From Comamonas sp. lk (GTDB lineage Bacteria > Pseudomonadota > Gammaproteobacteria > Burkholderiales > Burkholderiaceae_C), in NCBI GenBank assembly GCA_945925985.1, contig CAMELV010000001.1:186001-250000 (forward strand): DNA of 64,000 bases. The letters are read 5' to 3'. The number at the start of each line of letters is the position of its first letter. Position 1 is the first letter of the stretch. This document shows positions 47,232-61,854 of this stretch, in pieces. The notes beneath the pieces are model-generated. The model worked only from the letters and a program-made list of their open reading frames with translations, searched no databases and was not told the DNA's origin. Both the position numbers and the translations under genes were made by a program.

Positions 47232-49157
47232 ATGTCCATGGTGTTTCAGGAACAACGCAATGTGCTGGTGCCCATGCGCGACGGCGTCCAACTGGCGGCC
47301 GACATCTTGCGTCCGGCGGAAGGCGGCCGCGTGCCGGCCCTGCTCAATTTCGGGCCCTACCACAAGGACGGACGGGGTGGTCGGCTGGCGGTGGACAGCG
47401 TGCACCGGCATTTTGCGGCGCTGGGCTATGCCGGCGTGAGCGCCGATCTGCGCGGCTTGGGCAATTCAGGCGGCGTGAGCCCCGGCGCCTTCCACGCCGA
47501 CGAGGCGCTCGACGGGCATGACCTCGTGGAGTGGATCGCGGCTCAACCCTGGTGCGACGGTAACGTGGGGATGTGGGGGGTGTCCTACCCCGGCATCACG
47601 GCGCTGGCCACGGCGGCCACCTGCCCGCCACACCTGAAGGCGATCGTGCCCATTCATGCCAGTGCGGACCTGTACCGCGGCGTGGTGGGACTGGGTGGTA
47701 CCGCCAGCGGTTTCTGGATGCGGGCCGACTGGGGCCCCCGTATGGCAGCCTATAACCTGATGGCGCCCCTGTGGCAGGACCCGCAGGGGCGCTGGGCCAA
47801 GGTGTGGGCCGAGCACCTGGCCGGCAATAAGCCCTGGCTGGAGGCGTTTACGGCGCATCCCGATGACGATGACAAAGACGACGATTTTTGGCGCTCTCGC
47901 CGCGTCGATGTGACGCGCATCGAGTGTCCCACCTTCAACATCTGCGGCTGGCGTGACCTCTACGCCGACTGCACGCCACTTGACCATGAACTTATCCGTG
48001 CGACTAAAAAGCTGATGATGGGCCCCTGGAAGCACGAGTTCCCCGACACCGCCAAGGAAGCACCCGCAGCGGGCCTGTGGGAGATGCAGCGGTGGTTTGA
48101 CCGCTGGCTCAAAGGCGTGGACTGTGTCGGGCTGCATGGCTCGGTGCAGACGCCTGCCGTCAGCCTGTATGTGCAGGGTCGGCGTGGCCACTGGCGCACC
48201 GAGGCTGCCTGGCCGCCGGCCGGCACCGCACGCCAGACGTGGTACCTGGGCGAGGCCGGCGCCCTGAGCCCACAGGTGCCGGCGTCAGCCCAGACCGGTT
48301 ACGCCTACGACCCGACGGTGGGTATGCACTCGCTGGCCTGGGACCCCTGGACCACGGCGCTGGACCCCAGCTTGCCGCGCGACCACTCGGCCGACGACGC
48401 TCGCTCGCTGTGTTTCACCACAGCACCGCTGACCGAGCCGCTGCAGATCATGGGGGCACCGGCGGCCCGTCTGACACTGCTGGCCAGTGCGCTGCCCCTG
48501 AACGTGGTGCTCAAACTCTCGGCGGTGGCCGCCAATGGCGCCTCGACCCTGATCACCACCGGCTGGATGAAGCTCGACAGGGTGGCCGTGGCGGGTGAAC
48601 AGACCACAGTGCCGGTGCCCTTGCGCACCACGGCCTACCGGCTTGAGGCGGGCGAGCGGCTGCGGCTGTCGGTGGCCTGTGCCGACTTTCCGAGGGTCTG
48701 GCCTACCCCTGTGCCGGCTAATTTGCGTGTGTTTCACGGGGAGCAGACGGCCTTGACCCTGCCGGTGCAGGCGGTGGATGTGGCCAGCGGCGCTGCTGCG
48801 CCTCAATGGGGCCCACTGCAGGCCAGTGCGCTGGCCTCGGCCAACGACCTGGGCGGTGCGCAGAGTTGGAACACCAACCGCGAGCTGATGACCGACACAG
48901 TGCGGCTTGAGGCGACCCGCCACGAGCGTATTCGGGTTGACGGCGCCAGCGAGCTGGTGATCGACCACGCCTATGGTGCGGCGGTCAGCGCGGCGCGTCC
49001 GGACCTGGCCGCGATGCAGTCCACCACGACGGTGCGTTTTGAGCAGGCCGCCGGGTGCACCGAGCTGGTGGCACGCACGGTGTCCACGGCTGAACAGACG
49101 CGTCTGCAAGTGGTGGTCACGCGGGACGGTCAGCCCTGGTGGTCGGGCAGCTGGTAG
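47232..49157 (+). CDS. CocE/NonD-family serine hydrolase (X-Pro dipeptidyl-peptidase S15 fold)
   Basis: A 641-residue hydrolase. I chose ATG 47232 because GGGAG lies five bases before it; upstream in-frame ATGs at 47136 and 47217 have no ribosome site. The N-terminal alpha/beta-hydrolase domain begins NVLVPMRDGVQLAADILRP. The nucleophile Ser lies in GMWGVSYPGITAL, and a later MMGPWKHEF holds the likely catalytic His. A C-terminal jelly-roll domain (about 390-641) follows with GERLRLSVACADFPRVWP. Family enzymes cleave acyl esters or peptides; the substrate cannot be read off. Its 3' end overlaps the convergent oxidoreductase by 28 bases. Confidence 0.88.
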   Translation: MSMVFQEQRNVLVPMRDGVQLAADILRPAEGGRVPALLNFGPYHKDGRGGRLAVDSVHRHFAALGYAGVSADLRGLGNSGGVSPGAFHADEALDGHDLVEWIAAQPWCDGNVGMWGVSYPGITALATAATCPPHLKAIVPIHASADLYRGVVGLGGTASGFWMRADWGPRMAAYNLMAPLWQDPQGRWAKVWAEHLAGNKPWLEAFTAHPDDDDKDDDFWRSRRVDVTRIECPTFNICGWRDLYADCTPLDHELIRATKKLMMGPWKHEFPDTAKEAPAAGLWEMQRWFDRWLKGVDCVGLHGSVQTPAVSLYVQGRRGHWRTEAAWPPAGTARQTWYLGEAGALSPQVPASAQTGYAYDPTVGMHSLAWDPWTTALDPSLPRDHSADDARSLCFTTAPLTEPLQIMGAPAARLTLLASALPLNVVLKLSAVAANGASTLITTGWMKLDRVAVAGEQTTVPVPLRTTAYRLEAGERLRLSVACADFPRVWPTPVPANLRVFHGEQTALTLPVQAVDVASGAAAPQWGPLQASALASANDLGGAQSWNTNRELMTDTVRLEATRHERIRVDGASELVIDHAYGAAVSAARPDLAAMQSTTTVRFEQAAGCTELVARTVSTAEQTRLQVVVTRDGQPWWSGSW

Positions 49158-50251
49158 CGCCGGATGAAGCCACGGTCGATGCGGTCCTTGAGCCACCAGA
49201 CCCAGCGGCCCTGCGCGGACCAGGGGCCCCAGCTGGCGATAGCCTGATGGTTGCCGCATGACAGCAGGTTCAGGGTGTGCTCGGGTGGCTGGTGGGCCTC
49301 TAGGGGCTGGCCCGACAGGGCTGCATTGAGATTATTGGCCAGTGCGTCACCAGCGCGCACGGTATAGACGCCGCTGCGGGCGATGGGGCGGTCGACGCGG
49401 CTGCTGATGTCACCGGCGGCAAACACATGGGGGTGACTGGTAGAGCGCAGGCAGGCGTCCACCGCGAGAAACCCCTGCGCGTCCAGCGCCAGCCCGCTGC
49501 TCTGCAGCCAGCCCGGGGCTTGCGCGCCGGTGGCAATCAGCGGCACGTCACAGGCCAGGCGGGCGCCGCTGGCCAGCAGCACCTCGCCTTCTGTGAAGCG
49601 GCTGGCGGCATCCGGCAGCGCGGTGATCTGGCGGCTTTTGAGGGCTCTCACCACCCGGGCTTGTACCGACACCGGGTAGTTGGCGGCCAAGGCGCCGCCG
49701 GTCAGTAGCGTGACGGCGGCACCGGGCAGACGGTGGCGCACCGCCATGGCCAGCTCGATGCCAGCCGCGCCACCGCCGACCACCGCCAGCCGGAGCGCCT
49801 GGGTTTGTGCCAGCGCGACCACGCGCGGCCACAGGGTGCCAAAGGCTTCGATCGGGCGCACAAACAAACCATGCTCGCGCACGCCGGGCATGATTGCCTC
49901 CAGGCGGTGCCGGTCTTGCACGGCACCGGTGTTGACCGACAGCCAGTCGAAGTCAAGGACGCTGTCGTCGTCAAGCGTGACCTGGTTGCTGGCGGCGTCC
50001 AGCGCGACCAAGCTGTGCGGCAGCCAGCGGATTGACGAGCCGGCCAGCAGCGGCTCCAGCGCAATCACGCATTGTTCCAGCGCGTAATGGCCGGCCACAA
50101 AGCCGGGCACCATGCCAGAGTACAGCTGGCGCGGGTGCGGCGTGATGAGTGTGATCTTGGGCGGCAACGCGCCATGGCGAATGAGCTCGGCGTAGCGTTT
50201 GAGCACTTGCACATGGGCGTGGCCGGCGCCAAGCAGGACCAGGTGTTTCAT
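49130..50251 (-). CDS. FAD/NAD-dependent oxidoreductase of the SelD-associated family
   Basis: A 373-residue two-dinucleotide-domain flavoprotein. It opens with the FAD loop LVLLGAGHAHVQVLKRYAE, has the NAD(P) loop LAVVGGGAAGIELAMAVRHRL near residue 155, and the late HVFAAGDISS motif. The GAGHAHVQVL start and YSGMVPGFVAGHY are what I recall of the family named for sitting N-terminal to SelD in fusions (TIGR03169). selD lies 4.4 kb away on the other strand. It is the last gene of the minus-strand operon, 3 bases after the DUF3047 gene. Substrate unknown. Confidence 0.82.
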   Translation of the reverse strand: MKHLVLLGAGHAHVQVLKRYAELIRHGALPPKITLITPHPRQLYSGMVPGFVAGHYALEQCVIALEPLLAGSSIRWLPHSLVALDAASNQVTLDDDSVLDFDWLSVNTGAVQDRHRLEAIMPGVREHGLFVRPIEAFGTLWPRVVALAQTQALRLAVVGGGAAGIELAMAVRHRLPGAAVTLLTGGALAANYPVSVQARVVRALKSRQITALPDAASRFTEGEVLLASGARLACDVPLIATGAQAPGWLQSSGLALDAQGFLAVDACLRSTSHPHVFAAGDISSRVDRPIARSGVYTVRAGDALANNLNAALSGQPLEAHQPPEHTLNLLSCGNHQAIASWGPWSAQGRWVWWLKDRIDRGFIRRYQLPDHQG

Positions 50252-50254
50252 GGT

Positions 50255-51010
50255 TCAGGGGTTCCAGCGCAGTTGGGTCAGGTAGGCCAGGCTTTGTCCG
50301 CCCGTATTGTCGCTGTCGGCGCCGACCGCCACCGCGATGACCGGCGGGGTGCTGCGGCTCTCCTGGCCGAACAGGCGGGCAAAGTCTTCGGCCACATTGC
50401 GCCGCTGGGTGACCCACTGGCCGCTGGGGCTTGCGGGGCCGTCCAGCACCAGGTAGCGCACCCGGGCCGAATAGGGGTTGGCGCCAGCGCTCCCGGCCGG
50501 GTAGCGGCTGTCCCACAGGTAGCACAGGGTGGCGGCCGGCAGGGCCTGGCCGGTCACTGCGCGCGCCAGGCTCAAAGCTGCCCGCTGGCCGAAAGGGATG
50601 TCTGCCAGCGGCTGGTCAAACATGACACAGACCTTGAGCGCGGCGTCGTCGCCGGGCTTGGTGGCGATATCGGCCTGTGGCAGGCCGCGTTCGAGCCGCC
50701 AGCGCCAGCTCAAGTGACGCGGTGCTGGCCCGTCCCAGGCGTGGCTGATCACGCCATAGGAGGCGTTGGTGCTCAGTTCCAGCACGGTTTCACTGGCCAG
50801 CGGCACGAGGCTAAAGCGGCTGCGTGGTACAGCTTTGTCGGCCGGCAGGCCGCTGGCCACCCAGGCCGGGTGCAGCGCGACCCCGGCGGCATCAAACGGC
50901 GCTAAATTTTGAGAAAAAGCGGCTCCAGGCCACGTGCTTATTAGGGTTGTAGCTATTAAAATAATAGCAATCCGGAATTGCTGCAGGGTGAGCGGCATGG
51001 GCGTCAGCAT
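50255..51010 (-). CDS. DUF3047 exported protein
   Basis: A 251-residue protein with a signal peptide (about residues 1-34, cleavage near AAFSQN) and a DUF3047 domain: LSWRWRLERGLPQADIATKPGDDAALKVCVMFD, LCYLWDSRYPAG and a late VIAVAVGADSDNTGGQSLAYL. The beta-rich pattern suggests a periplasmic binding or lectin-like fold. Most of the signal peptide (residues about 13-33) is encoded by the dispersed repeat at 50912-50970. It starts 2 bases after the preceding gene, so it belongs to the same operon. Function unknown. Confidence 0.85.
   Translation of the reverse strand: MLTPMPLTLQQFRIAIILIATTLISTWPGAAFSQNLAPFDAAGVALHPAWVASGLPADKAVPRSRFSLVPLASETVLELSTNASYGVISHAWDGPAPRHLSWRWRLERGLPQADIATKPGDDAALKVCVMFDQPLADIPFGQRAALSLARAVTGQALPAATLCYLWDSRYPAGSAGANPYSARVRYLVLDGPASPSGQWVTQRRNVAEDFARLFGQESRSTPPVIAVAVGADSDNTGGQSLAYLTQLRWNP
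50912..50970. repeat. Dispersed AT-rich repeat encoding the DUF3047 signal peptide
   Basis: Plus strand reads GGCTCCAGGCCACGTG, then TTGTAGCTATTAAAATAATAGCAA. On the coding minus strand ATAGCT...TGGCCTGGAGCC is read in the same frame as the copies at 53625 and 63335, giving IA-x4-L...GA-x-F. Confidence 0.8.
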
Positions 51011-51012
51011 GG

Positions 51013-53199
51013 TCAGCCCCGGCGCCAGTCGTGGTAGCGGCGCACCCAGGCCAGCAGCCGCTCGGGGGCGTGGGCACGCTTCCAGGTGCCGGCGGCGTAT
51101 TTGTTGGCCTCGCTCAATGTAGGGTAGGGGTGGATAGTGCCCAAAATTTTATTTAGCCCCAGGCCCTGCTGCATGGCCAGCGTGTACTCGGCCAGCAACT
51201 CGCCGGCCTGGCTGCCGACGATGGTCACGCCCAGGATGCGGTCTTGCCCGGGCACGGTCAGCACCTTGACGAAGCCCTCGGTCTCACCCTCGGCGATGGC
51301 GCGGTCCAGGTCGTCGAGCGGGTAGCGGGTGATCTCATAGGCCATGCCCTGGGCGCGGGCGGCCTGCTCGTTCAGTCCAACGCGGGCCACCTCGGGCTCA
51401 GTAAAGGTGACGGCGGGCAGGGCCCGGTAGTCGGCCTTGAAGCGCCGGAACTGGCCAAACAAGGCATTGACGGTGGCGTACCAGGCCTGGTGCGCCGCGG
51501 CGTGTGTGAGTTGGTAGGTACCGGCCACATCGCCCACGGCATAGATGTTGGGGTACAGGGTTTGCTGGTAGGCGTTGGTGTCGATGGTGCGGCCGGTGGG
51601 TATGCCCAGGGCCTCCAGGCCATAGCCGTCCAGCCGGGCCACCCGGCCCACGGCGCACAGCAGTTCGTCGAAGGGCAGGGCAGTTTCTTGCCCATCCTGA
51701 CTCACCACCAGGGTCTTGATCGGGGTCTTGACCGGTGCGTCCGCCCCGGCTGCAGTTTCACAGCGCAGGGCCGTGTGGCCAGTCAGCACCCGCACGCCGT
51801 CGGCCCGCAGCGCGGCCATAACGAGAGTTGACACGTCCGCGTCTTCTCGCAGCAGCAGGCGAGGCGCCTGCTCTACCAGCGTCACCTGTGAGCCGAGCCG
51901 GGCAAAGCTTTGCGCCAGCTCGCAGCCGATGGGCCCGCCGCCCAGCACCAAGAGCCGCTTCGGTGCCGCCGTCAGCGTGGCAAAACGCGCCCACAGGGTG
52001 TCACTGGTCACATAGCCGGCTTCGGCCAGACCTGGCAGGGGCGGTACCAGCGGGCGGGCGCCAGCGGCAATCACAATGCTGCGGGCGCTCAGCCGCTGCG
52101 AGCTGCCGTCGGGGTGCCTGATCTCGACCGTCCAGGGGTTGCACAGGGTGGCGTGGCCCTGCACCACCTCCACCCCCAGGCTGGTGTAGCGGGCCACGCT
52201 GTCATGCGGCGCAATGGCGGCGATCACGCTCTGGATGCGCTGCATCACGGCCGGGAAGTCGACCACCGGCGCCACGCTCTGCAGGCCAAAGCGGCTGGCA
52301 TCGCGCATCTGCTGCGCCACCCGGGCGCTTTTGATCAAGGCCTTGCTGGGCACACAGCCGTAGTTCAGGCAATCGCCGCCCATGACCTTGGCCTCCACCA
52401 GCGTCACCCGGGCCTTAACGGCCGCTGCAATGTAGGCCGAGACCAGCCCACCGGCGCCGGCACCGATGACGATCAGGTTGCGGTCAAAGCGCCGGGGCCG
52501 CTGGCCACGCCAGCGTGCATACACCCGGCGCCGCTGCAGGGCCAGCATGACTGCCTTGGCCAGCAAGGGGAACAGGCCCAGCAGGGCCAGCGCGCCGAGC
52601 AAGCCCGGGCTGGCGACATCGCGCAGTGCGCTGATGCTGGCGAGTTCGGTGCCGGCGTTGACGTAGACCGCCGTGCCGGCCAGCATGCCGAGCTGGCTGA
52701 CCCAGTAAAAGGTCCAGGGGCGCAGGCGGGTCAGACCCATGGCCAGGTTGATGACAAAAAAGGGCACCACCGGAATCAGGCGCAGGCTGAACAGATACAG
52801 GGCGCCATCGCGCGCCAGCCCCTGGTTGATGCCAGCCAGCCGGGCGCCAAAGCGGGCTTGCACACTGTCGCGCAGCACAAAGCGGGCCGCCAGAAAGGAC
52901 ACGGTGGCGCCGAGGGTGGAGGCAAACGACACCAGCAGCAGGCCCCAGCCCAGCCCGAAGATGCCGCCGCCTGCCAGCGTCAGGATGGCGGCACCGGGCA
53001 GCGACAGCGAGGCCACTGCCACATAAAGCGCAAAGTAGGTGCCGCGTACCGCCCAGGGCGCCTCGGCATACAACGCGCTGAGCCCGGCCTGGCTGGCCTT
53101 CAGGTAGGCCAGGCTGAAAAAGCGGCCCAGGTCCAGCGCCACAAAGCCGGCCAGCGCCAGCAACACCGCGCCCAGAACCAGCAGCCGACTGCGGGTCAT
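51013..53199 (-). CDS. Fusion of a VTT/TVP38 membrane domain and a mercuric reductase-like disulfide oxidoreductase
   Basis: A 728-residue protein. Residues ~1-230 form a TVP38/TMEM64 (VTT) domain with about six membrane segments (SLPGAAILTLAGGGIFG, FSLRLIPVVPFFVINLAMGL). Residues ~240-728 are a class I pyridine nucleotide-disulfide oxidoreductase: FAD loop VIGAGAGGLVSAYIAA, redox Cys pair GGDCLNYGCVPSK, NAD loop VLGGGPIGCELAQSFARLG, and a C-terminal dimerisation motif HPYPTLSEANK. No mercury-binding C-terminal Cys pair is seen, so mercuric reduction is unlikely. I chose ATG 53199, which overlaps the preceding stop by ATGA, over 53301. The electron acceptor is unknown. Confidence 0.88.
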   Translation of the reverse strand: MTRSRLLVLGAVLLALAGFVALDLGRFFSLAYLKASQAGLSALYAEAPWAVRGTYFALYVAVASLSLPGAAILTLAGGGIFGLGWGLLLVSFASTLGATVSFLAARFVLRDSVQARFGARLAGINQGLARDGALYLFSLRLIPVVPFFVINLAMGLTRLRPWTFYWVSQLGMLAGTAVYVNAGTELASISALRDVASPGLLGALALLGLFPLLAKAVMLALQRRRVYARWRGQRPRRFDRNLIVIGAGAGGLVSAYIAAAVKARVTLVEAKVMGGDCLNYGCVPSKALIKSARVAQQMRDASRFGLQSVAPVVDFPAVMQRIQSVIAAIAPHDSVARYTSLGVEVVQGHATLCNPWTVEIRHPDGSSQRLSARSIVIAAGARPLVPPLPGLAEAGYVTSDTLWARFATLTAAPKRLLVLGGGPIGCELAQSFARLGSQVTLVEQAPRLLLREDADVSTLVMAALRADGVRVLTGHTALRCETAAGADAPVKTPIKTLVVSQDGQETALPFDELLCAVGRVARLDGYGLEALGIPTGRTIDTNAYQQTLYPNIYAVGDVAGTYQLTHAAAHQAWYATVNALFGQFRRFKADYRALPAVTFTEPEVARVGLNEQAARAQGMAYEITRYPLDDLDRAIAEGETEGFVKVLTVPGQDRILGVTIVGSQAGELLAEYTLAMQQGLGLNKILGTIHPYPTLSEANKYAAGTWKRAHAPERLLAWVRRYHDWRRG

Positions 53200-53801
53200 G
53201 ACAAGGCCCGCCAGCCCCACCAGAGGCGGGTGGCGATGGTGATGGCGCACAGGCTGGCAAAGCCGTAAGCCAGCGCCGCAAAGTGTTCTGGCCACAGGCA
53301 CATGGCGGCGAAACAGAGCAGCGTCTCGGTAGCCTCGGTAAGCCCGCCCAGAAAATAAAAGGATTTGTTCGGGTAGGCGGTGCTGCTCAGGCCGCGCTTG
53401 GCAGCCAACACGGCAAAGGCCAGAAAGCTGGCGCTGGTGCCCATGAAGGCGGCCAGCAGCACCGCCGCTGGCAGCGCGTTTCGTGGCGGGTCGGCCAGGG
53501 CAAAGGCCAGGGGGATGCTGGCGTAAAACAGGAAGTCCAGCGCAATGTCCAGAAAACCCCCGGCATCCGTGGGTTGTCCCTGACGCGCGACCGCGCCGTC
53601 CAGGGCATCCAAAATTCTTGAGCCAAATATGGCTCCAGCCCCCGCCAGATATAGCTCGTTAGCTATCAAAAACGCAGCAAATACGCCCAGAGCGAAGCCG
53701 GCCAGTGTGACACTGTTGGCCGACAGGCCCCAGCGCGCCAGCTGCCGGCCAGCGGCGGTGACCGGGCGGCGGATCAGGGCGGTGGCGTAGGGGTCAAGCA
53801 T
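53196..53801 (-). CDS. CDP-alcohol phosphatidyltransferase family protein (YnjF-like)
   Basis: A 201-residue membrane enzyme that would transfer a phosphatidyl or similar group from a CDP-alcohol. The signature D-x2-DG-x2-AR-x8-G-x3-D-x3-D is complete in ILDALDGAVARQGQPTDAGG and the following FLDIALD. Six or so membrane segments are present. I chose ATG 53801 (MLDPYATALIRRPV) over 53855. Codons for about FLIANELYLAGAGAIFGS in the second membrane helix come from a dispersed repeat. In E. coli a YnjF of this family is encoded with YnjBCD, as here. Confidence 0.88.
   Translation of the reverse strand: MLDPYATALIRRPVTAAGRQLARWGLSANSVTLAGFALGVFAAFLIANELYLAGAGAIFGSRILDALDGAVARQGQPTDAGGFLDIALDFLFYASIPLAFALADPPRNALPAAVLLAAFMGTSASFLAFAVLAAKRGLSSTAYPNKSFYFLGGLTEATETLLCFAAMCLWPEHFAALAYGFASLCAITIATRLWWGWRALS
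53625..53679. repeat. Dispersed AT-rich repeat inside the CDP-alcohol phosphatidyltransferase gene
   Basis: Plus strand reads AAATATGGCTCCAGCC, CCGCCAGATATAGCTCG, TTAGCTATCAAAAACGC. It keeps the coding frame and encodes a membrane helix just before the catalytic motif. Confidence 0.8.
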
Positions 53802-53855
53802 GGAGCAAATGGCAGGATAACCCATGGCAGCGCGGGGCGCACAGGTCACAGGCAC

Positions 53856-54488
53856 TCATGGGGCAGGCGGCAGATGCGTGAGGTGCGCTGGGTCGGCTAT
53901 GTCGGCCAAGTCATGGGTCACCAGCAGCGCCGGGATCTGGCGGGTGCGCACCAGCCCAAACACCAGCGCCCGCATGCGTTCGCGCAGCGCCACATCGAGC
54001 CGGGCGAAGGGCTCATCGAGCAGCAGCGCCAGCGGTTGGGCCAGCAGCGCGCGCGCCAGCGCCACCCGGGCTCGTTGGCCGCCTGAGAGCGTGGCTGGGT
54101 CAGCATTGGCAAAGGCGTCCATTTCCACGTCGGCCAGGGCCTGCCGCACCTGGGCTTGGCGTTGGACCGCCGGGCCACCGGGCACGGCAAACAGCAGGTT
54201 GTCGCCAATCGTCATGTGAGGAAAGAGCAAGTCGTCCTGGAACAGGATGCCGACCCGGCGTGCATGCGCTCGCAGCCTGTCGATGCGCTGGCCGTTCAGG
54301 TGCACCAGACCGTCAAACTGCAGGCCCTCAGGCAGGGTGCCGCAGAGGGCGGCCAGCAGGCTGGATTTGCCCGAGCCACTGGGCCCCATCAGGGTGTGCA
54401 CGCAGCCCGGCGCCACGCTCAAGCGCAAGGGGCGCAGCAACACCCGCTGTGGTGTGCTCAGGCTGTGCAGATCGAGAGTCAAGGTCAT
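53856..54488 (-). CDS. ABC transporter ATP-binding protein (YnjD-like)
   Basis: A 210-residue ABC ATPase. It has Walker A GPSGSGKSSLL, Q-loop ILFQDDLLFPH, signature LSGGQRARVALARAL, Walker B LALLLDEPFARLD and the switch His in LLVTHD. I chose ATG 54488 (MTLTLDLHSLSTPQ); a longer frame upstream reads into the permease gene and has no family match. It follows the fused permease by 32 bases. Short ATPases of this kind serve thiamine, iron and YnjBCD-type importers. Confidence 0.92.
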   Translation of the reverse strand: MTLTLDLHSLSTPQRVLLRPLRLSVAPGCVHTLMGPSGSGKSSLLAALCGTLPEGLQFDGLVHLNGQRIDRLRAHARRVGILFQDDLLFPHMTIGDNLLFAVPGGPAVQRQAQVRQALADVEMDAFANADPATLSGGQRARVALARALLAQPLALLLDEPFARLDVALRERMRALVFGLVRTRQIPALLVTHDLADIADPAHLTHLPPAP

Positions 54489-54520
54489 AGCAGGCAGGAC
54501 TGTACAGGCTGGGGTAGCCC

Positions 54521-56188
54521 TCACAAGCGCCGGGCCCGGCCCAGCCGGGCCGCTAGCGCGAACATCAGCACCGGCAGCAGCCATTGCAGCCCGGCGTAGG
54601 CGGCGGTGAGTGAGCGCTGACCACCCGAGGCCAGCGTGACTGCTTCGGTGCTGACCGTGTTGAAGCGGCCCGCCCCCAGGTAGAGCGTGGGCAGGTACTG
54701 CGCCACGCTGACGGCAAAGCCCACCGCCAGGCTGGCGGTCAGGGCGGCGCGCAGCATCGGCCATTTGACCTGCCACAAAAAGGCCCAGCGGCTGCGGCCC
54801 AGCGTGGCGGCCAGCTGCGCCAGCCGGGCATCGAAGCCGTTATACGGCCCCTGCAGCGCCAGCAGCACATAGGGCAGGCAGGCCAGCGTGTGTGCCAGCC
54901 ACAGGCCGCTGGCTTGGCCGTCCAGCCCCCAGGCCAGGGCCAGCTGGTGCAGCCCCAGCACCCACAGCACGCCGGGCAGCGCCAGGGGCAAGTAGAGCAG
55001 TACCTGGGCCCGCCGATGCCAGCTGTGCGGCGCCAGCTCCAGCCAGGCCACCGCCCACAGTAGCGCGCTCAGGCTGCTCGCCAGCGCCAGCCCGGTGGTG
55101 GCCCAGAGGGTGCCACTGCTGGCCAGCACCGATCGCCAGGCGGCCAGGCTCCAGACTTCGGGCAAGAGCTGCGGGAAAGGCCAACTGCCGGTGAAGCTGC
55201 CCAAGCCCAGTGCCAGACCCACGGCCAGGTAAATGCCCATTAGCCAAGCCAAAGGCTGGCGGGGGATGGCTTTGCTGGCGGTTGCAGCTGGGGTCGAGCC
55301 GGGCGAGTGCTGGGCGCCTGCGCGTATCGCGTCGGGGCCGCGTGTCCGGCGACGGCGCCACAGGGGGCTGCGCGCGCTGCCCCAGGCCAGCGCTGCCGCC
55401 AGTGCCATGGCCGCCGCCAGCAGCCACGCCGCGGCAGCACCCTGAGCGTTGGTGGCCGGATCAGCATCCTGCAGCCACTGCCAGGCCAGCACGGCCAATG
55501 TGGGAGGCGCGCCGGGCCCGATCACCAGCGCCACATCCACCACGGTCAGGTTGTAGGCCAGCACTGCCAATAGTGGTCCCAAAAGCCGGGGCCAGAGCTG
55601 AGGCCAGGCCAGGCGCCACCAGGCGCTGCGGGCGCTGTAGCCCAGGGTCTGCGCCAGCCGCAGCTGCTGTTGCAACTGCTGACCCACCTCGGGCCGTTGC
55701 AACTGGGCCAGCGCGGCCCACAGCAAAAACGGCGTCTCTTTGAGCACCAACACCGCCACCAGGCCCAGGCCCCAGGGGTCTTGCGTGGTGGCCCAGGGCG
55801 GCGGCGCGCTTAAGCCGGTGGCCCATGGGGACAGCAGCCGCAGCAGCCAGCCACTGGGCGCCAGCAGGGCCACCAGCCCGATCGCCAGGGCCGCATGCGG
55901 CAGGGCCAGCAGCGGCGCCAGGCCGCTTGCCAGCTGCGCCCCTACCGCGGCGCTGGGCAGCGGGCTGAAGCTGCGGCACAGCAGCCAGGCTGCTGCCAAT
56001 GTGCTCAGCGCGCTGGCCAGCAGCCCGGTCCACAGGCTCATCGCCAGCGCGCGCAGGGTTTGCGAGTCGCGCCACAGCGCGGCCCAGGCCGGTGCATCCA
56101 GCCCGGCCTGCACCGCTGCCCACAGGCTCCAGCCCAGGGGCAGGGCGGCGAGGGTGAACAGCATCAGTGAGAGGGTTGGGGCGGGCAT
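54521..56188 (-). CDS. Fused-permease ABC transporter membrane protein (YnjC-like)
   Basis: A 555-residue permease with two homologous halves of about six helices each, split near residue 275-310 by a basic linker (SARSPLWRRRRTRGP). Each half carries an EAA-type loop (LQRPEVGQQLQQQLRLAQTLGYSARSAWWRLAWPQLWP and LAQLAATLGRSRWAFLWQVKWPML regions). The fusion is typical of the ThiP/FbpB/YnjC group. With the ATPase behind it and a YnjB-like binding protein at 59507, a YnjBCD-type importer is the best call. The ligand is not known; ThiP-type thiamine uptake is less likely given YnjF beside it. Confidence 0.87.
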   Translation of the reverse strand: MPAPTLSLMLFTLAALPLGWSLWAAVQAGLDAPAWAALWRDSQTLRALAMSLWTGLLASALSTLAAAWLLCRSFSPLPSAAVGAQLASGLAPLLALPHAALAIGLVALLAPSGWLLRLLSPWATGLSAPPPWATTQDPWGLGLVAVLVLKETPFLLWAALAQLQRPEVGQQLQQQLRLAQTLGYSARSAWWRLAWPQLWPRLLGPLLAVLAYNLTVVDVALVIGPGAPPTLAVLAWQWLQDADPATNAQGAAAAWLLAAAMALAAALAWGSARSPLWRRRRTRGPDAIRAGAQHSPGSTPAATASKAIPRQPLAWLMGIYLAVGLALGLGSFTGSWPFPQLLPEVWSLAAWRSVLASSGTLWATTGLALASSLSALLWAVAWLELAPHSWHRRAQVLLYLPLALPGVLWVLGLHQLALAWGLDGQASGLWLAHTLACLPYVLLALQGPYNGFDARLAQLAATLGRSRWAFLWQVKWPMLRAALTASLAVGFAVSVAQYLPTLYLGAGRFNTVSTEAVTLASGGQRSLTAAYAGLQWLLPVLMFALAARLGRARRL

Positions 56189-56291
56189 TGCGGCATAAAG
56201 TATGGCAGCTGTCGGTGTGGCATGGGCGCCCGGGGTGACCTGCTACATTGCCGGGACCGCTCGGGGCCGCGTCGGCCACCGGGAGCCCAAC

Positions 56292-57650
56292 ATGACCCTC
56301 ACGTCTCCCCACCCCATCTGGTCCCGCCTGGACAGTGCCCGGCTCGGGCTGCTCTACTTTGTGGCGCTGTCGGCCAGCCTGGGCACGGCCGTGTCGGCCA
56401 TCGGCCGCCTGCTGCTTTACCTGGTCGCCCTGGTTTATTTGGTGGGCCGTGCCAGCGGACGCGGCCGGGCTCCGGGCACGGGTTTGCCACCGGCCTTGAG
56501 CTGGGCGGTCTTACTTGCCTTGGCCTACATGGCGCTGTCAGTGCTGTGGTCGGCGGTGGCGCCGGTTGAGGCTCTGTGGTCCTGGAGCCGGCATGCCCGG
56601 ATCTTGACTATTCTGGTCCTGCTGTGTCTGATCACCAGCCAGACCGAGGCCCGCGCCGTGTTGCGCGTCTTTATCTGGGGCCAGTTGTTTGTGGTGTTCA
56701 GCGCTTGGATGCTGGTGTTCAAGCTGCCAGTACCCTGGGCCACCGGCGTCTGGCAGGGTAGTTATGCGGTCTTCAGCACTTATTTGGAGCAGGGCATCTC
56801 GCAAGCCGTGCTGGTGGCCCTGCTCTGGTTCCAGCGCGATCAGGTTTTCGGGCCCCGGGGGCGCTGGCTGGCCGTGGCCTGCGCATTGGCTACAGCGGTA
56901 CTGACCATCGGTCTGATGCCGGGGCGCAGCGGGCACTTGGTGTTGTTGGGCCTGCTGACCTTTGTCCTGCTGCATCAGTTGCCTAGGCGCCACCGCTGGT
57001 TGGTGTTTTTGGTGCCGATTCTCAGCGTGGCCTTGGTATTTCAGCTGTCCACGGCTTTTCGGGATCGCATGAACCAGATGGTCTCAGAAGTCGCCTTGCA
57101 TCGTCAGGGCAGCACGCAAGACACATCGTCCGGCACCCGGCTCGAGTACTGGCGCGCATCGCTGCAGGCCATTGCCGAGCGGCCGCTTTTGGGCCATGGT
57201 GCGGGCAGCTGGAACCAGACCTACCGCCAGTTCAAAGGACCGCAGGCCTCGCCGCTGAACGACACCGTGGCCGACCCGCACCAGCTATTTTTGTTGTGGG
57301 CGGTTGAAGGCGGCTTGCTGGGGCTGGCGCTGTTGTGCGCGGTCTTAGCTGCTTTGTGGCGACATGGCAGTTCGCTGGCTGCTCCTGGTGGCCAGGCCCT
57401 CCAGGTGATGCTGCTGGCCCTCGTGATCTCTGGCCTGTTCAATTCCATGATCTATGGCATCGGTATCGGCGACTTCTTCTGTATTGGCTTGGGTATTCTG
57501 GCCGCCCTGGGTCGCCACCCGGTTCGGTCGCCCGGCGGCCCCGGCATGGGCCAGCCCGGCCGCCACTCCGCCAAAGCGGTTGCCTTCAACCAGGGTGGCC
57601 TGGGGCATGGCCAGGCGCAGGGCGTCGACCAGCGGGCGCAGGGCGGATGA
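56292..57650 (+). CDS. O-antigen ligase-family membrane protein with an antisense-derived tail
   Basis: A 452-residue polytopic protein with about ten to twelve membrane helices and the Wzy_C/O-antigen ligase region: MPGRSGHLVLLGLLTFVLLHQLPRRHRW, and the large-loop SGTRLEYWRASLQAIAERPLLGHGAGSWNQTY. Such enzymes join O-antigen or other glycans to lipid A core or to proteins. I chose ATG 56292, after GGGAG, over 56202. The natural-looking C-terminus is near residue 409 (LGILAALGRH). The remaining ~43 residues are low-complexity Gly/Gln and run antisense through the Hsp70-like gene. Confidence 0.83.
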   Translation: MTLTSPHPIWSRLDSARLGLLYFVALSASLGTAVSAIGRLLLYLVALVYLVGRASGRGRAPGTGLPPALSWAVLLALAYMALSVLWSAVAPVEALWSWSRHARILTILVLLCLITSQTEARAVLRVFIWGQLFVVFSAWMLVFKLPVPWATGVWQGSYAVFSTYLEQGISQAVLVALLWFQRDQVFGPRGRWLAVACALATAVLTIGLMPGRSGHLVLLGLLTFVLLHQLPRRHRWLVFLVPILSVALVFQLSTAFRDRMNQMVSEVALHRQGSTQDTSSGTRLEYWRASLQAIAERPLLGHGAGSWNQTYRQFKGPQASPLNDTVADPHQLFLLWAVEGGLLGLALLCAVLAALWRHGSSLAAPGGQALQVMLLALVISGLFNSMIYGIGIGDFFCIGLGILAALGRHPVRSPGGPGMGQPGRHSAKAVAFNQGGLGHGQAQGVDQRAQGG

Positions 57651-58820
57651 GCCACCGGTCAGGTAAACCGCATCCACGCTGGTTTGGCCAGCCGCACGGA
57701 CGCAGGCTTGGGCGCACTGCACCACCTGCGCCACCGGAACTTGAAGCGCGTCGTGCAGGCGCCCGGCGTCTAGGCTGGCACTCAGCCCATCGCCCAAAAA
57801 ATCTAAGGTGATCGGCGCCATTTGGCCGGACTCGGAGCAGGCAATTTTGGCGCTCTCTACTGCTGACAACAGGCGGTGGCCGTGTTGTCCGTCCAGCGCC
57901 TGCATCAGCCGCTGGTGAAGCACCGGGTCGGCGTAGCTGGGGCGCAGTTCCCGGGCAAAGTGCAGCGCGCGCCGGGTGTAGGCCTGGTGGATCAGGTGCC
58001 AGGTGGCCAGGTCAAAGAACACGCTGTTGGGCACTGGCCGGCCGCCCGTGCCCTGGTGCTTGTAGCCCAGCAGAGGCATCACGGCTGACAGGTCCAGCAG
58101 GCGGTCAAAGTCGGTGCCGCCGAGGTGGATGCCGGTGGTGGCCAGGATGTCGGCGCGCCGGTCGCGCAGGTGGCTGCGCGCCGGGTTCAGCCGGATCACC
58201 GTGAAATCTGAGGTGCCGCCGCCGATGTCCACCACCAGGGCCGTGGTTTCGCCGTTTACGCGTTGTTCGTAGTCGAGTGCGGCGGCAATGGGCTCGAGCT
58301 GGCAGCTCAGGTGGGTAAAGCCGGCGTCGCGCGCCGCCCGCTCTAGCGTGGCCTGGGCCTGGGTGTCGCGATCGGCGTCGTCGTCAACAAAGTGCACTGG
58401 GCGCCCCAGCACCGCGTGCGTCAGCGCCTGGCCGGCCTGGGCCTCGCAGCGGCGTTTGAGCTCCTTGAAAAACAGCACCAGAATGTCGTAGAAGCGCAGG
58501 CTCTGGCCGTTGACGGCGGTGTACTCGTTCATCAGCCGGCTGCCCAGTAGGCTCTTGAGCGAGCGCAGCAGTCGGCCCTCGGTGCCGGCCAGGTAGGCTT
58601 GCATCGCCTCAGTACCGTACAGCACGGACTGCGTTTCGTTGGCAAAAAACAGCGCGGTCGGCATTTCAGCGCGACCCTCACCCAGCGGCATCACCTGCAG
58701 CCTGCCGTCAGCACCGATCAGCGCTGCGGCCGAGTTGGAGGTGCCGAAATCGATGCCCAGCACCAGGGGCTGGTCGGTGGCGCCGGCGCGGCGCACCGGG
58801 CGCTCCATCACCTGGCTCAA
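57345..58820 (-). CDS. Hsp70-family (YegD-like) protein with an antisense-derived tail
   Basis: A 491-residue actin-fold protein. It shows the ATPase motifs LGIDFGTSNSAAAL, ALVVDIGGGTSDFTVI and VYLTGGSSALRPLVDAL. It lacks the Hsp70 substrate-binding domain, which fits YegD-type putative chaperones. The family-like end is VEGNRFGGVAAGLA near residue 421. The ~65 residues that follow (Gln/Thr/Glu/His-rich) run antisense through the convergent ligase gene, so the two frames overlap by 306 bases. The start overlaps the esterase stop by ATGA. Confidence 0.87.
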   Translation of the reverse strand: MSQVMERPVRRAGATDQPLVLGIDFGTSNSAAALIGADGRLQVMPLGEGRAEMPTALFFANETQSVLYGTEAMQAYLAGTEGRLLRSLKSLLGSRLMNEYTAVNGQSLRFYDILVLFFKELKRRCEAQAGQALTHAVLGRPVHFVDDDADRDTQAQATLERAARDAGFTHLSCQLEPIAAALDYEQRVNGETTALVVDIGGGTSDFTVIRLNPARSHLRDRRADILATTGIHLGGTDFDRLLDLSAVMPLLGYKHQGTGGRPVPNSVFFDLATWHLIHQAYTRRALHFARELRPSYADPVLHQRLMQALDGQHGHRLLSAVESAKIACSESGQMAPITLDFLGDGLSASLDAGRLHDALQVPVAQVVQCAQACVRAAGQTSVDAVYLTGGSSALRPLVDALRLAMPQATLVEGNRFGGVAAGLAHAGAAGRPNRVATQGGQNTQANTEEVADTDAIDHGIEQARDHEGQQHHLEGLATRSSQRTAMSPQSS

Positions 58821-59494
58821 GCGGCGGGGCCCAGGACCAGGGCCAGAAAGGCCGAGATGTCAGAAATTTCTTGCGGGTGCAGGCTGTGCGGCATCGGGTA
58901 GCTGCGCCAATGCACCGGCTGCCCCAATGCGACCAGTGCATCGCGTGAGTCCTCGCCGCGGGCGATCACCACCACCGGGTCCTGCGTGCCGTGCGCCATG
59001 AAGACGGGTGTTTGGGCGTTGGCCGCGTGTCGCTCGGCGGTAAACCGGTCGGCCAGCGGCAAGTAGCCCGACAGCGCCATGATGCCGGCCAACCGTTGTG
59101 GCAGCCGCAAGCCCGTGTGCAGGGCCATGGCGCAACCTTGGCTGAAGCCGGCCAGCACAATGCGCTCGGCCGGTATGCCGCGCGCCACTTCATGCGCGAT
59201 CAAGGCCGCAATGGCGCGCTCCGATGCTTGGATGCCGGCGGCGTCCTGTTGGCTGACCAGGTTTGGGCCGAGGATGTCGTACCAGGCCGGCATCATGTAG
59301 CCGCCATTGACTGTGACCGGCATGCTGGGTGCGTGCGGAAACACAAAACGTATTGGCGGGCAGCCGGACAGATCGAGTTCGGGCACCAGCCCGGCAAAAT
59401 CATGGCCGTCGGCGCCCAGACCATGCAGCCAGATCACAGCGGCGGTGGGGTGCGGGGCTGTTTCGAGTTCGACGCAGGGTAGCAAAGGGTTCAT
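58817..59494 (-). CDS. Phospholipase/carboxylesterase-family alpha/beta hydrolase
   Basis: A 225-residue cytoplasmic serine hydrolase of the acyl-protein thioesterase/carboxylesterase group. The start AVIWLHGLGADGHDFAGLVPEL supplies the oxyanion region. The nucleophile lies in VLAGFSQGCAMALHTGL, the Asp in GTQDPVVV and the His in PHSLHPQE. It lies 12 bases after the ynjB-like gene and is coupled to the Hsp70-like gene. The physiological ester is not known. Confidence 0.92.
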   Translation of the reverse strand: MNPLLPCVELETAPHPTAAVIWLHGLGADGHDFAGLVPELDLSGCPPIRFVFPHAPSMPVTVNGGYMMPAWYDILGPNLVSQQDAAGIQASERAIAALIAHEVARGIPAERIVLAGFSQGCAMALHTGLRLPQRLAGIMALSGYLPLADRFTAERHAANAQTPVFMAHGTQDPVVVIARGEDSRDALVALGQPVHWRSYPMPHSLHPQEISDISAFLALVLGPAA

Positions 59495-59506: not shown

Positions 59507-60823
59507 TTATTGGCCATAACGTTTGAGCCATTCCCGCTCCAGCGGCTCCACCCAGCTGCCGTGCGGCTCGGGCAGTGCAGGGGCGCTGCGCGACACCTGG
59601 CCAGGTAGCGGTTTTGCAGCAAAGCGGGCGAGGTCGGTCGGGCTCAGTCGCTCCAAGGCCAGCACAGTGGGGTCGCCCCACACCGCGATATCGGCTTTGC
59701 GCGCCTGCGCCTCGGGGCTGAGCAGAAAGTTGGCCACCACCTGAGCCGCGTCGCTGGCGCTGGCGTTGACGGGGATCGCAACAAAGTGGGTGTTGCCGAT
59801 GGTCCCGCTCTCAAACTGATAGCTGACAATGCTGGCCGGCAGACGCTTGGCGGCGATTTCGTTGGCGGCATCGTTGGGGTTGAAGGTCAGCGCCAGCAGC
59901 AGTTCGCCATCGGCCAGCATCTGTCGCATGGCCTCGGCGTTTTGCGGAAACTGCCGCCCTGAGCGCCACAGCTGCGGATGCAGCGCGTCCAAGGTTCGCC
60001 ACAGCGGCGCCGTGGCCTGCGCAAAGGCCGTCAGCGTGACCGGGCGGTACAGCGCACTGCGCTCGGTGTTCAGGTCCAGCAGCAATTGCTTAAGAAAGGT
60101 GGTGCCGTGGAAGTTGGGCGGGCGCGGGTAGGTGAGGCGGCCGGGGTTGGCCTTGGCAAAGGTCAGCATCGCGTCCAGGCTGCGTGGCGGCTCGGGGGTG
60201 CGCCGACTGTCCGCCATAAAGGTTAGCTGCGCCATGCCCCAGGGGGCCTCCATTCCGTCCACCGGCTCAGAAAAATCCAGGCGGGTGGTCGGTTTGCCCT
60301 GCACGTCAACCAGCGCGTAGCCGGGCAGGCCTTCAGCAAAGGGACCCAACAGCAGGCCCTCGCGCTTCATGGTCAGGAAGTTCTCGCCGTTGATCCACAC
60401 CAGGTCCACGCTGCCACGGGTCTTACCTGCGGCTTTTTCGGCCCGGACCCGTTTGACCATGTCAGCGGCATCACTGATCTTGACGTGCTCCAGCCGCACC
60501 CCATGACGCTGCAGCAGCTCGCCCGCCACCCACTGGATGTAGCTGTTGATCGCCTCCGAGCCGCCCCAGGCATTGAAGTAAACCGTCTGGCCACGTGCGC
60601 GGGCCTCGATGGCCGCCCAGGCGGCATTGGTTTGGGCCCAGGCCGGGGCGCTCAGGCCCGCCGCCATGGACCCCATAGACGCCAAAAGGGCCAGCGCAGT
60701 GCGGCGCGTCGGCAGGCATGGATCCCCGCTTTCGCGAGGATGACGGATGGCGTGTTGCCCGTCATTCCCGCGCAGGCGGGAATCCAGGTTGATTGGGGTT
60801 TGACTGAGGCGTGGAATGTTCAT
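59507..60823 (-). CDS. ABC transporter solute-binding protein (YnjB-like) with a repeat-encoded N-terminus
   Basis: A 438-residue binding protein. Residues ~45-64 form a Tat/Sec-like signal (PTRRTALALLASMGSMAAG, then APAWAQ). The mature part has VYFNAWGGSEAINSYIQWVAGELLQ, DLVWINGENF and YPRPPNFHGTTFLKQLLLDLN, the pattern of YnjB. The first ~40 codons, between the ATG coupled to ftsY (ATGA) and the signal, are two palindromic repeat units giving NLDSRLRGNDG and RHPRESGDP. How export works with this extension is uncertain; a downstream start may be used. Its likely permease and ATPase are at 54521 and 53856. Confidence 0.85.
   Translation of the reverse strand: MNIPRLSQTPINLDSRLRGNDGQHAIRHPRESGDPCLPTRRTALALLASMGSMAAGLSAPAWAQTNAAWAAIEARARGQTVYFNAWGGSEAINSYIQWVAGELLQRHGVRLEHVKISDAADMVKRVRAEKAAGKTRGSVDLVWINGENFLTMKREGLLLGPFAEGLPGYALVDVQGKPTTRLDFSEPVDGMEAPWGMAQLTFMADSRRTPEPPRSLDAMLTFAKANPGRLTYPRPPNFHGTTFLKQLLLDLNTERSALYRPVTLTAFAQATAPLWRTLDALHPQLWRSGRQFPQNAEAMRQMLADGELLLALTFNPNDAANEIAAKRLPASIVSYQFESGTIGNTHFVAIPVNASASDAAQVVANFLLSPEAQARKADIAVWGDPTVLALERLSPTDLARFAAKPLPGQVSRSAPALPEPHGSWVEPLEREWLKRYGQ
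60720..60790. repeat. Palindromic repeat pair inserted in the 5' end of the ynjB-like gene
   Basis: Minus strand contains GATTCCCGCCTGCGCGGGAA (60785-60766) and then GTCATCCTCGCGAAAGCGGG followed by GATCCATG. It is the same family as the units at 14363-14438, but in frame inside a gene. Confidence 0.85.
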
Positions 60824-61854
60824 GACAGCAGGGCCTGGGCAAATTCGCGGGCATTGAAAGTTTCGAGGTCTTCGAGCTGCTCGCCGACGCCGATGAAGTA
60901 AACCGGGATCGGCCGCTCCCGCGCAATCGCGGCCAGCACGCCACCCTTGGCGGTGCCATCCAGTTTGGTCACGATCAGCCCGGTCAGTTGCAGTGCGTCG
61001 TCAAAGGCGCGCACTTGCGCCAGGGCGTTCTGCCCGGTGTTGCCGTCGATCACCAGCAGGGCCTCGTGCGGTGCGCTGGCGTCGGCCTTCTGGATCACGC
61101 GTTTGATTTTTTTCAGCTCTTCCATCAGGTGCAGCTGGGTGGGCAGGCGCCCGGCGGTGTCGACCAGCACCACGTCGCGGCCCCGTGCCCGGCCGGCACT
61201 CACCGCGTCAAAGCTGACTGCGGCCGGGTCGCCACCCTGCTGGCTAATGATCTCGACCGTGTTGCGCTCGGCCCAGGCGCCCAGCTGCTCGCGTGCGGCA
61301 GCGCGGAAGGTGTCGGCAGCAGCCAGCAACACGCTGGCGCCCTCCTGTGCCAGGTGGTGGGTCAGTTTGCCAATCGACGTGGTCTTGCCGGCGCCGTTGA
61401 CCCCCGCGACCATGATCACGGTGGGCTTGTGCTGACCAATCAGCAGCCGCTTCTCGAGGGGCGCCAGCAGCGCCGTGAGGGACTCGACCAGCAGCGCCTT
61501 GACCGCAGCCGGCTCGGTGACGCGCGCCTCTTTGACCCGGTGTTTCAGGTCTGCCAGTAAAAATTCGGTGGCCTTGACGCCGGTGTCGGCCATCAACAGC
61601 GCGGACTCCAGGTCTTCGTAAAGGGCCTCGTCGATGCGGGTGCCGGTGAAGACGCTGGCCAGGGCGCTGCCAGTCTTGCGCAGGCCCAGGCTGAGCTTGC
61701 GCAACCAAGAGCTGCGCTCGGCTGGCGCCGCCGGGCTGGCCGCGGTCAGGGCGCTGGCGGGTGCGTCGGTGACCTGCCGATGCGGGCTTGGGCGACTGGT
61801 CTGGGCGGTACTCTCAACCGGTGGAGGGGATTTCTTTTTGAAAAAACTGAACAT
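60820..61854 (-). CDS. ftsY: Signal recognition particle receptor FtsY
   Basis: A 344-residue SRP receptor GTPase at the inner membrane. The acidic N-terminal A domain is very short (FFKKKSPPPVESTAQTS), common in betaproteobacteria. The NG domain shows VMVAGVNGAGKTTSIGKLTHHL, DTFRAAAREQLGAWAERN, VDTAGRLPTQ, TKLDGTAKGG and YFIGVGEQLEDLETFNAREF. It overlaps the ynjB-like start by four bases and is divergent from the M16 peptidase gene across 28 bases. Confidence 0.97.
   Translation of the reverse strand: MFSFFKKKSPPPVESTAQTSRPSPHRQVTDAPASALTAASPAAPAERSSWLRKLSLGLRKTGSALASVFTGTRIDEALYEDLESALLMADTGVKATEFLLADLKHRVKEARVTEPAAVKALLVESLTALLAPLEKRLLIGQHKPTVIMVAGVNGAGKTTSIGKLTHHLAQEGASVLLAAADTFRAAAREQLGAWAERNTVEIISQQGGDPAAVSFDAVSAGRARGRDVVLVDTAGRLPTQLHLMEELKKIKRVIQKADASAPHEALLVIDGNTGQNALAQVRAFDDALQLTGLIVTKLDGTAKGGVLAAIARERPIPVYFIGVGEQLEDLETFNAREFAQALLS

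Follow-up and report, generated by a model that had tools for sequence, protein, structure and literature searches.

A putative Comamonas operon joining an orphan importer to a putative phosphatidyltransferase shares partner genes with ArsS clusters

What does an importer without a known cargo bring into the cell when a phosphatidyltransferase and two flavoproteins are encoded right behind it? The question is raised by a 64,000-nucleotide stretch of Comamonas sp. lk (GCA_945925985.1, contig CAMELV010000001.1, positions 186,001 to 250,000; hereafter the window), which lies on contig C1 of a 4.29-Mb draft genome that is 94.8% complete. Here, six minus-strand genes encode, in 5' to 3' order, a YnjC-like fused permease, a YnjD-like ATP-binding cassette (ABC) ATPase, a YnjF-like CDP-alcohol phosphatidyltransferase, a VTT domain fused to a disulfide oxidoreductase (the VTT-flavoprotein), a DUF3047 protein and a SelD-type flavoprotein (TIGR03169). 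Their intergenic spacings, in the same order, are 32, 54, -4, 2 and 3 bases, and judged from this spacing the six genes are a putative operon. An initial annotation of the window had given these genes, spacings and families, and the list of open reading frames and our profile matches agree with it. To our knowledge, YnjBCD and YnjF are orphan proteins in Escherichia coli K-12.

A new observation offers a way into the question: in Burkholderiales, ArsS (TIGR04167), the radical S-adenosylmethionine enzyme of arsenosugar synthesis, is likewise found with the VTT-flavoprotein, DUF3047 or DUF547 proteins, the SelD-type flavoprotein and, in some loci, a bufferin operon. Two loci (L063 and L065) carry, within one 20-kb stretch, the SelD-type flavoprotein, DUF3047, TIGR04282, TIGR04283, DUF547, the VTT-flavoprotein and ArsS; another (L062) carries bufferin genes, the VTT-flavoprotein, DUF3047, TIGR04283, TIGR04282 and ArsS, and four more (L058, L161, L162 and L269) have ArsS with several of these partners. 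ArsS scored above its cut-off in these loci. The annotation of a Burkholderia glumae plasmid likewise lists arsS, methylthioadenosine (MTA) phosphorylase, both "arsenosugar biosynthesis" transferases, the flavoprotein and the VTT-flavoprotein. Among 15 ArsS-positive relatives, the 13 with at least 5 kb around arsS were examined (G015 and G037 were left out), and 11 of these showed at least one of VTT, the VTT-flavoprotein, TIGR04282/TIGR04283, DUF547, DUF3047 and the SelD-type flavoprotein, while the tblastn maps of the other two (G038 and G051) held no shared part. Because maps of open reading frames skip genes in GC-rich DNA, counts were taken from tblastn maps, in which matches of at least 55 bits were kept. 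In a phylum-wide sample of 249 genomes, the VTT-flavoprotein, called by our own cut of a frame longer than 700 codons, was found in 37, four of them with a stop inside the match. Eleven genomes had it together with ynjB and 19 together with arsS; in 7 of the former and 7 of the latter, the two genes were no more than 10 kb apart.

The two kinds of cluster also meet directly. In eight hybrid loci, ynjB stands beside TIGR04282 and TIGR04283. In a genome of the same genus as the window (L252, G003), genes for an APH-type kinase, YnjB, YnjC and YnjD face TIGR04282-TIGR04283-DUF547-VTT-flavoprotein. Elsewhere, the arrangement is kinase-YnjBCD-DUF3047 with a flavoprotein, TIGR04283 and TIGR04282 (L042, G020), kinase-YnjBCD-TIGR04283-TIGR04282-VTT-flavoprotein-flavoprotein (L131, G109) or kinase-YnjBCD-TIGR04283-TIGR04282 (L145, G145). 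L181 holds YnjF plus the kinase/transferase set, L217 the kinase and transferases beside YnjB (YnjC and YnjD were not found), and L233 and L240 the transferases beside ynjB (the kinase was not found), so that the kinase is present in most hybrids (L252, L042, L131, L145, L181 and L217). YnjF was not seen in seven of the eight, where TIGR04282 and TIGR04283, mostly with the kinase, stand instead. The transferases of L131, L145 and L042 exceed their curated cut-offs; for TIGR04282 the runner-up model is a guanylyltransferase, and the nearest solved chain a putative nucleotide-diphospho-sugar transferase. The L131 and L042 kinases belong to PF01636, and that of L145, which matched no Pfam family at E 0.01, is 61% identical to that of L131; across eight aligned kinase copies, the residues that we take to be catalytic are invariant. 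ArsS exceeded its cut-off in none of the eight hybrid-locus genomes, that of L233 scoring only 57 bits against 300.

The partner system switches at least four times on a quick tree of the VTT-flavoprotein (44 rows) and at least five times on one of TIGR04283 (24 rows), both trees having weak support, worst for TIGR04283, and one flagged long-branch pair; short matches, matches with a stop, duplicates and two TIGR04283 rows with neither partner had been left out of the input. Given these switches, ynjB and ArsS-type parts have probably been joined more than once. A third type of supply occurs in L127 and L156, where a NupC-like transporter (in L156, 272 bits against a nupC cut-off of 442) accompanies YnjF, the VTT-flavoprotein and the SelD-type flavoprotein. 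The initial annotation had overlooked ynjB and the versions with kinase, TIGR04282 and TIGR04283 or with the NupC-like transporter, and it gave no pointer to a class of substrate; the swapping of parts with ArsS clusters provides one.

We mapped the YnjB loci of the best 80 of 579 relatives (the named loci) and all 23 loci of the phylum-wide genomes with YnjB. The full run YnjB-hydrolase-Hsp70-YnjC-YnjD-YnjF-VTT-flavoprotein-DUF3047-flavoprotein recurs within the genus in G016 (L041), G025 (L044) and G035 (L050 with L270), and in G014 (L039) as far as the contig end. In G035, a GGDEF/EAL gene (L050 3312-5651) is inserted between ynjC and ynjD, and a GGDEF regulator lies inside the ynj cluster of L131 (3353-4750). 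That the families would co-occur outside the window genome had been set as a test beforehand: YnjB, YnjC, YnjF, the VTT-flavoprotein and the SelD-type flavoprotein are together in 8 of the 80 named loci (L178, L182, L184, L186, L187, L189, L191 and L197), all eight with DUF3047; 20 control regions, hand-picked at round coordinates, yielded no listed part at all. In the 51 named loci whose sequence continues for 9 kb or more behind YnjB, we found YnjC in 44, YnjF in 20, the VTT-flavoprotein in 12, DUF3047 and the SelD-type flavoprotein in 9 each, TIGR04283 in 4 and ArsS in none. The corresponding counts in the 23 phylum-wide loci were YnjC 23, YnjF 16, VTT or VTT-flavoprotein 9, SelD-type flavoprotein 4, DUF3047 and DUF547 3 each, and TIGR04283 2.

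Thus, ynjBCD-ynjF is a wide core with VTT as a common partner, and the full set of the window was seen in Burkholderiales only. With its gene order kept in relatives, the unit is conserved across genera. A curiosity of one genus is ruled out, the full set being present in other genera and YnjBCDF with the VTT-flavoprotein in other families (L149, L151 and L152). In these last three loci, DUF547 lies between the VTT-flavoprotein and ynjB, where other loci carry DUF3047; both are present in L182, L178, L063 and L065. Among the open-licence papers that our searches listed and that we examined, none described this neighbourhood, and a search of this literature found no paper joining ynjF, ynjB and ynjE.

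We propose, by analogy with the ArsS clusters, that YnjBCD brings in the substrate for a downstream pathway of the ArsS type: a ribose-type and perhaps arsenic-containing compound would be imported and end up on a membrane lipid. That the operon is a variant, fed by import, of a pathway that in its other form makes the starting compound itself via ArsS is the explanation we tentatively favour, while conceding that it may well be wrong. A radical S-adenosylmethionine (SAM) enzyme is described as adenosylating arsenic in oxo-arsenosugar biosynthesis, in a paper that names ArsS in a cited title (PMC12159101). In the ArsS route, arsenic would be adenosylated and a nucleoside phosphorylase would then yield ribose 1-phosphate; an importer plus a kinase would give the same, and from this parallel a ribose-type substrate may be suspected. 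In the hybrid loci, the kinase would phosphorylate, the nucleotidyltransferase-like TIGR04282 would activate and the glycosyltransferase TIGR04283 would transfer, which are the steps one would predict if a free ribose-type sugar joined the pathway, and YnjF may be an alternative way onto the lipid. In the window, judging by family, YnjB would capture a small polar molecule in the periplasm, YnjCD would import it, and YnjF would couple it to CDP-diacylglycerol to give a phospholipid head group. The VTT domain may move or position that lipid in the membrane, the fused disulfide oxidoreductase and the SelD-type flavoprotein may maintain either the head group or a thiol/metalloid centre in reduced form, and DUF3047 may act on the product outside.

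All 24 YnjF-like copies examined retain D-x2-DG-x2-AR-x7/8-G-x3-D-x3-D, which we take to be the catalytic motif of CDP-alcohol phosphatidyltransferases. The initial annotation had interpreted the operon as uptake of a small molecule, its linkage to a lipid and a redox step on either side. An importer together with a phosphatidyltransferase of intact motif speaks for the first two; what did not hold as written was VTT as a local addition and the absence of any lead to a substrate class. What had been observed is thus confirmed and widened, and its interpretation partly supported.

Several findings weigh against an import-fed version of the ArsS pathway. In the window genome, the best ArsS match reaches 25 bits against a cut-off of 300 and TIGR04283 has no match at E 1e-30, and therefore no arsenosugar is made there by that route. 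The shared set is well represented in Burkholderiales but sparse outside this order, as is evident from the few partners in 20 phylum-wide ArsS loci (hand-picked from 102 across 19 families, three on contigs shorter than 8 kb): VTT-type or flavoprotein parts and TIGR04283 occur in 5 each, DUF547 and DUF3047 in 1 each, YnjF, the SelD-type flavoprotein and bufferin genes in none, and 12 loci lack any shared part. An arsenic-linked gene is in view at only a minority of YnjBCD loci, and both YnjF and the kinase/transferases are absent from 5 of the 23 phylum-wide ones. The "arsenosugar" names of TIGR04282 and TIGR04283 are themselves presumably context-based, and we know of no evidence that E. coli, which has ynjABCDEF, handles arsenosugars. 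The fold of a YnjB model (AlphaFold2, mean predicted local distance difference test 93) gives matches of similar quality to proteins that bind phosphonate, sugar phosphate, iron, citrate or polyamine; the top match is STM0429, which presumably binds a phosphonate. The tie between the two kinds of cluster may also concern 5-substituted riboses in general and not arsenic.

This last point leads to the alternative that survives best, namely the same import-then-lipid architecture with a non-arsenic substrate (a polyol, a sugar phosphate, methylthioribose or another 5-substituted ribose), the ArsS clusters reusing general lipid-decorating and redox parts. We regard it as a serious if somewhat doubtful possibility. 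It fits the distribution of the genes: YnjBCD-YnjF is present in 16 of the 23 phylum-wide loci, and ArsS in none of these 23 genomes against 102 of the 249 overall (Fisher 5e-6). ArsS is also present in just 1 of 15 ynjB genomes in the sample of relatives (G024) and above its cut-off in just 3 of the 50 named ynjB genomes scored, which we chose mostly for longer contigs or the presence of partner genes. Mutual exclusion of ynjB and ArsS is not established by these counts, since ArsS is concentrated in a few families without ynjB, so that phylogeny confounds the comparison. A non-arsenic substrate would further agree with the top family model of YnjF, archaetidylinositol phosphate synthase (54 bits, under its cut-off of 180; no equivalog model exceeded its own cut-off), and the MTAP-like phosphorylase of the ArsS clusters would suit 5-modified riboses in general. 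However, the hybrid loci pair ynjB with exactly the two transferases that accompany ArsS, and do so in separate lineages.

The import-fed reading also has a more specific form, in which YnjBCD imports arsenosugars, or the 5-substituted ribose of the ArsS clusters, and YnjF makes an arsenosugar phospholipid, a scavenging route of which E. coli ydjXYZ-ynjABCDEF would be the best-known member. We consider this form unlikely. As to the ArsS side, in one genome (G050:C1:2946732-2950230) TIGR04283 and a VTT-flavoprotein flank a radical-SAM frame that matches ArsS weakly (47 bits) and is possibly a divergent ArsS with other chemistry.

It is also rather improbable that the locus is a loose envelope or metal-stress neighbourhood, in which the importer, VTT, redox proteins and bufferins are co-inherited with no common pathway, although bufferin genes do adjoin both kinds of cluster. 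DUF2282-DUF692-DUF2063-DoxX genes stand directly before ynjB in L181, L182, L185, L187, L148 and L150, most of the four in L178, L184, L189 and L197, and bufferin genes lie near arsS in L128 and L062 (most of them in L274). These four are described as the bufferin core genes, and bufferins as improving growth under copper stress (PMC12452194); the main text of that survey does not contain the terms "arsen", "TVP38", "DedA" or "ABC transporter". Bufferins indicate metal stress in general, and with bufferin genes in only 2 of the 23 phylum-wide ynjB loci they count against our explanation as well. Carriage on plasmids would suit a stress neighbourhood too. The IncC conjugative plasmid NZ_MH760469.1 (L272 7077-16042) has bufferin genes, the VTT-flavoprotein, the SelD-type flavoprotein and ynjB, and YnjB relatives occur in 75 plasmid-collection records; on the IncC plasmid, what appears to be the first half of ynjC stops at IS26, beside resistance genes. 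A table of the FNR regulon, moreover, includes E. coli ydjXYZ-ynjABCD (PMC3688515). Against mere co-inheritance stand the tight spacing with its 4-base overlap, the fixed gene order across genera and the replacement of YnjF by the kinase/transferase set in seven of the eight hybrids. Selenium handling, with the SelD-type flavoprotein marking a selenium step, is very improbable, although the mapped loci were not searched for selenium genes: TIGR03169 is named for proteins at the SelD N-terminus, and its frames exceed 750 codons, leaving room for a SelD fusion, in G003, G011 and G020 of the same genus, but the window flavoprotein is a stand-alone frame of 373 amino acids with no SelD fusion, and selD lies several genes from ynj in E. 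coli and Klebsiella.

Table 1. Genes of the operon and of the ynjB region in the window, the operon genes with their likely starts; scores in bits, family cut-offs in brackets.
Feature	Coordinates	Strand	Basis
SelD-type flavoprotein, stand-alone	49130..50251	-	TIGR03169, 316.7 (310)
DUF3047 protein	50255..51010	-	PF11249, 165.7 (27)
VTT (DedA/TVP38-type) domain + disulfide oxidoreductase fusion	51013..53199	-	PF09335, 78.5 (33.9); PF07992/PF02852
YnjF-like CDP-alcohol phosphatidyltransferase	53196..53801	-	PF01066, 36.6 (22)
YnjD-like ABC ATPase	53856..54488	-	108
YnjC-like fused permease	54521..56188	-	position equal to ynjC in relatives
YegD-like Hsp70 chaperone	57345..58820	-	248.6 (331, not reached); beside ynjB in close relatives
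Alpha/beta hydrolase (Abhydrolase_2)	58817..59494	-	Pfam; part of the run kept in the genus
YnjB solute-binding protein	59507..~60691	-	NF008633, 524 (203)
ftsY	60820-61854	-	upstream of ynjB; presumed from sequence

Among the products of the operon (Table 1), the permease matched nothing in Pfam, and CysT, PotC and ThiP only weakly. The DUF3047 protein begins with a hydrophobic, signal-like stretch; no solved relative was convincing by sequence (best E 0.36), and a search for DUF3047 in viral contigs led nowhere. The closest solved chains to the SelD-type flavoprotein by sequence are NADH-dehydrogenase-like and FSP1-type flavoproteins. All 29 VTT-flavoprotein fusions examined have the CX4C active-site motif and none has a C-terminal CC pair, which MerA carries. 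Mercuric reductase was rejected as the identity of the VTT-flavoprotein on the absence of that pair and a TIGR02053 score of 348 against 454 bits.

With ynjB present on the same strand, 3.3 kb upstream of the operon, the importer is complete; a plus-strand Wzy_C gene separates ynjB from ynjC. The nearest YnjB in the named scan, which may omit very near records, is 92% identical and comes from a Rhodoferax metagenome-assembled genome. Searches by sequence for solved structures of YnjB and the kinase led nowhere. The start of ynjB is uncertain: its open frame extends to 60823 through a repeat between ftsY and ynjB (60692-60823; LDSRLRGNDG...RHPRESGDP in the ynjB frame), and the true start probably lies within or past this repeat. 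Within 56289-58820, the plus-strand Wzy_C frame and the Hsp70 frame on the minus strand share about 300 bases at their ends; a deletion between them is possible, given an extra 310-codon frame at that place in L041.

If the more specific form of the import-fed reading is true, bacteria unable to make arsenosugars would obtain arsenolipids by scavenging. Arsenosugar phospholipids have been reported from an alga and from lake biota (PMC7345539), and a cyanobacterium produces arsenolipids (PMC7177459). The accounts in these papers and in PMC12159101 name ArsM and a radical-SAM step for the formation of arsenosugars and arsenolipids, with no enzyme named, in the parts available to us, for attachment to the lipid; the open-licence literature yielded no paper combining arsenosugar phospholipid with arsM. 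The VTT proteins and the phosphatidyltransferase are candidates for turning arsenosugars into phospholipids. More generally, the parts exchanged with ArsS clusters give the orphan importer a testable substrate class, and tie bufferins, the SelD-type flavoprotein, DUF3047 and DUF547 into one network.

How does the window compare with known systems? E. coli ydjXYZ-ynjABCDE with ynjF, for which we know of no substrate, likewise has YnjB, YnjC, YnjD, YnjF and VTT proteins (YdjX and YdjZ) together. Unlike the window, its VTT proteins are unfused, no DUF3047 or SelD-type flavoprotein is annotated there, and YdjY, YnjA and the sulfurtransferase YnjE are present as well. The initial annotation had taken VTT as an addition made in Comamonas, but ydjX and ydjZ (DedA/VTT) lie in the same run as ynjABCD in E. 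coli K-12, so that the VTT link already exists there. Mercuric reductase and dihydrolipoyl dehydrogenase share their family and the CX4C active-site disulfide with the VTT-flavoprotein, which differs in its fusion to VTT and in scoring under both curated cut-offs. Where bufferin (BufABCD) operons lie directly upstream of ynjB in L182 and L148, the window has ftsY. Finally, the ArsS clusters of Burkholderiales (TIGR04167 with TIGR04282/TIGR04283), which sometimes include bufferin genes and a YnjA-like gene, have the VTT-flavoprotein, the SelD-type flavoprotein and DUF3047/DUF547 in common with the window, which carries the importer and YnjF in place of ArsS and TIGR04283.

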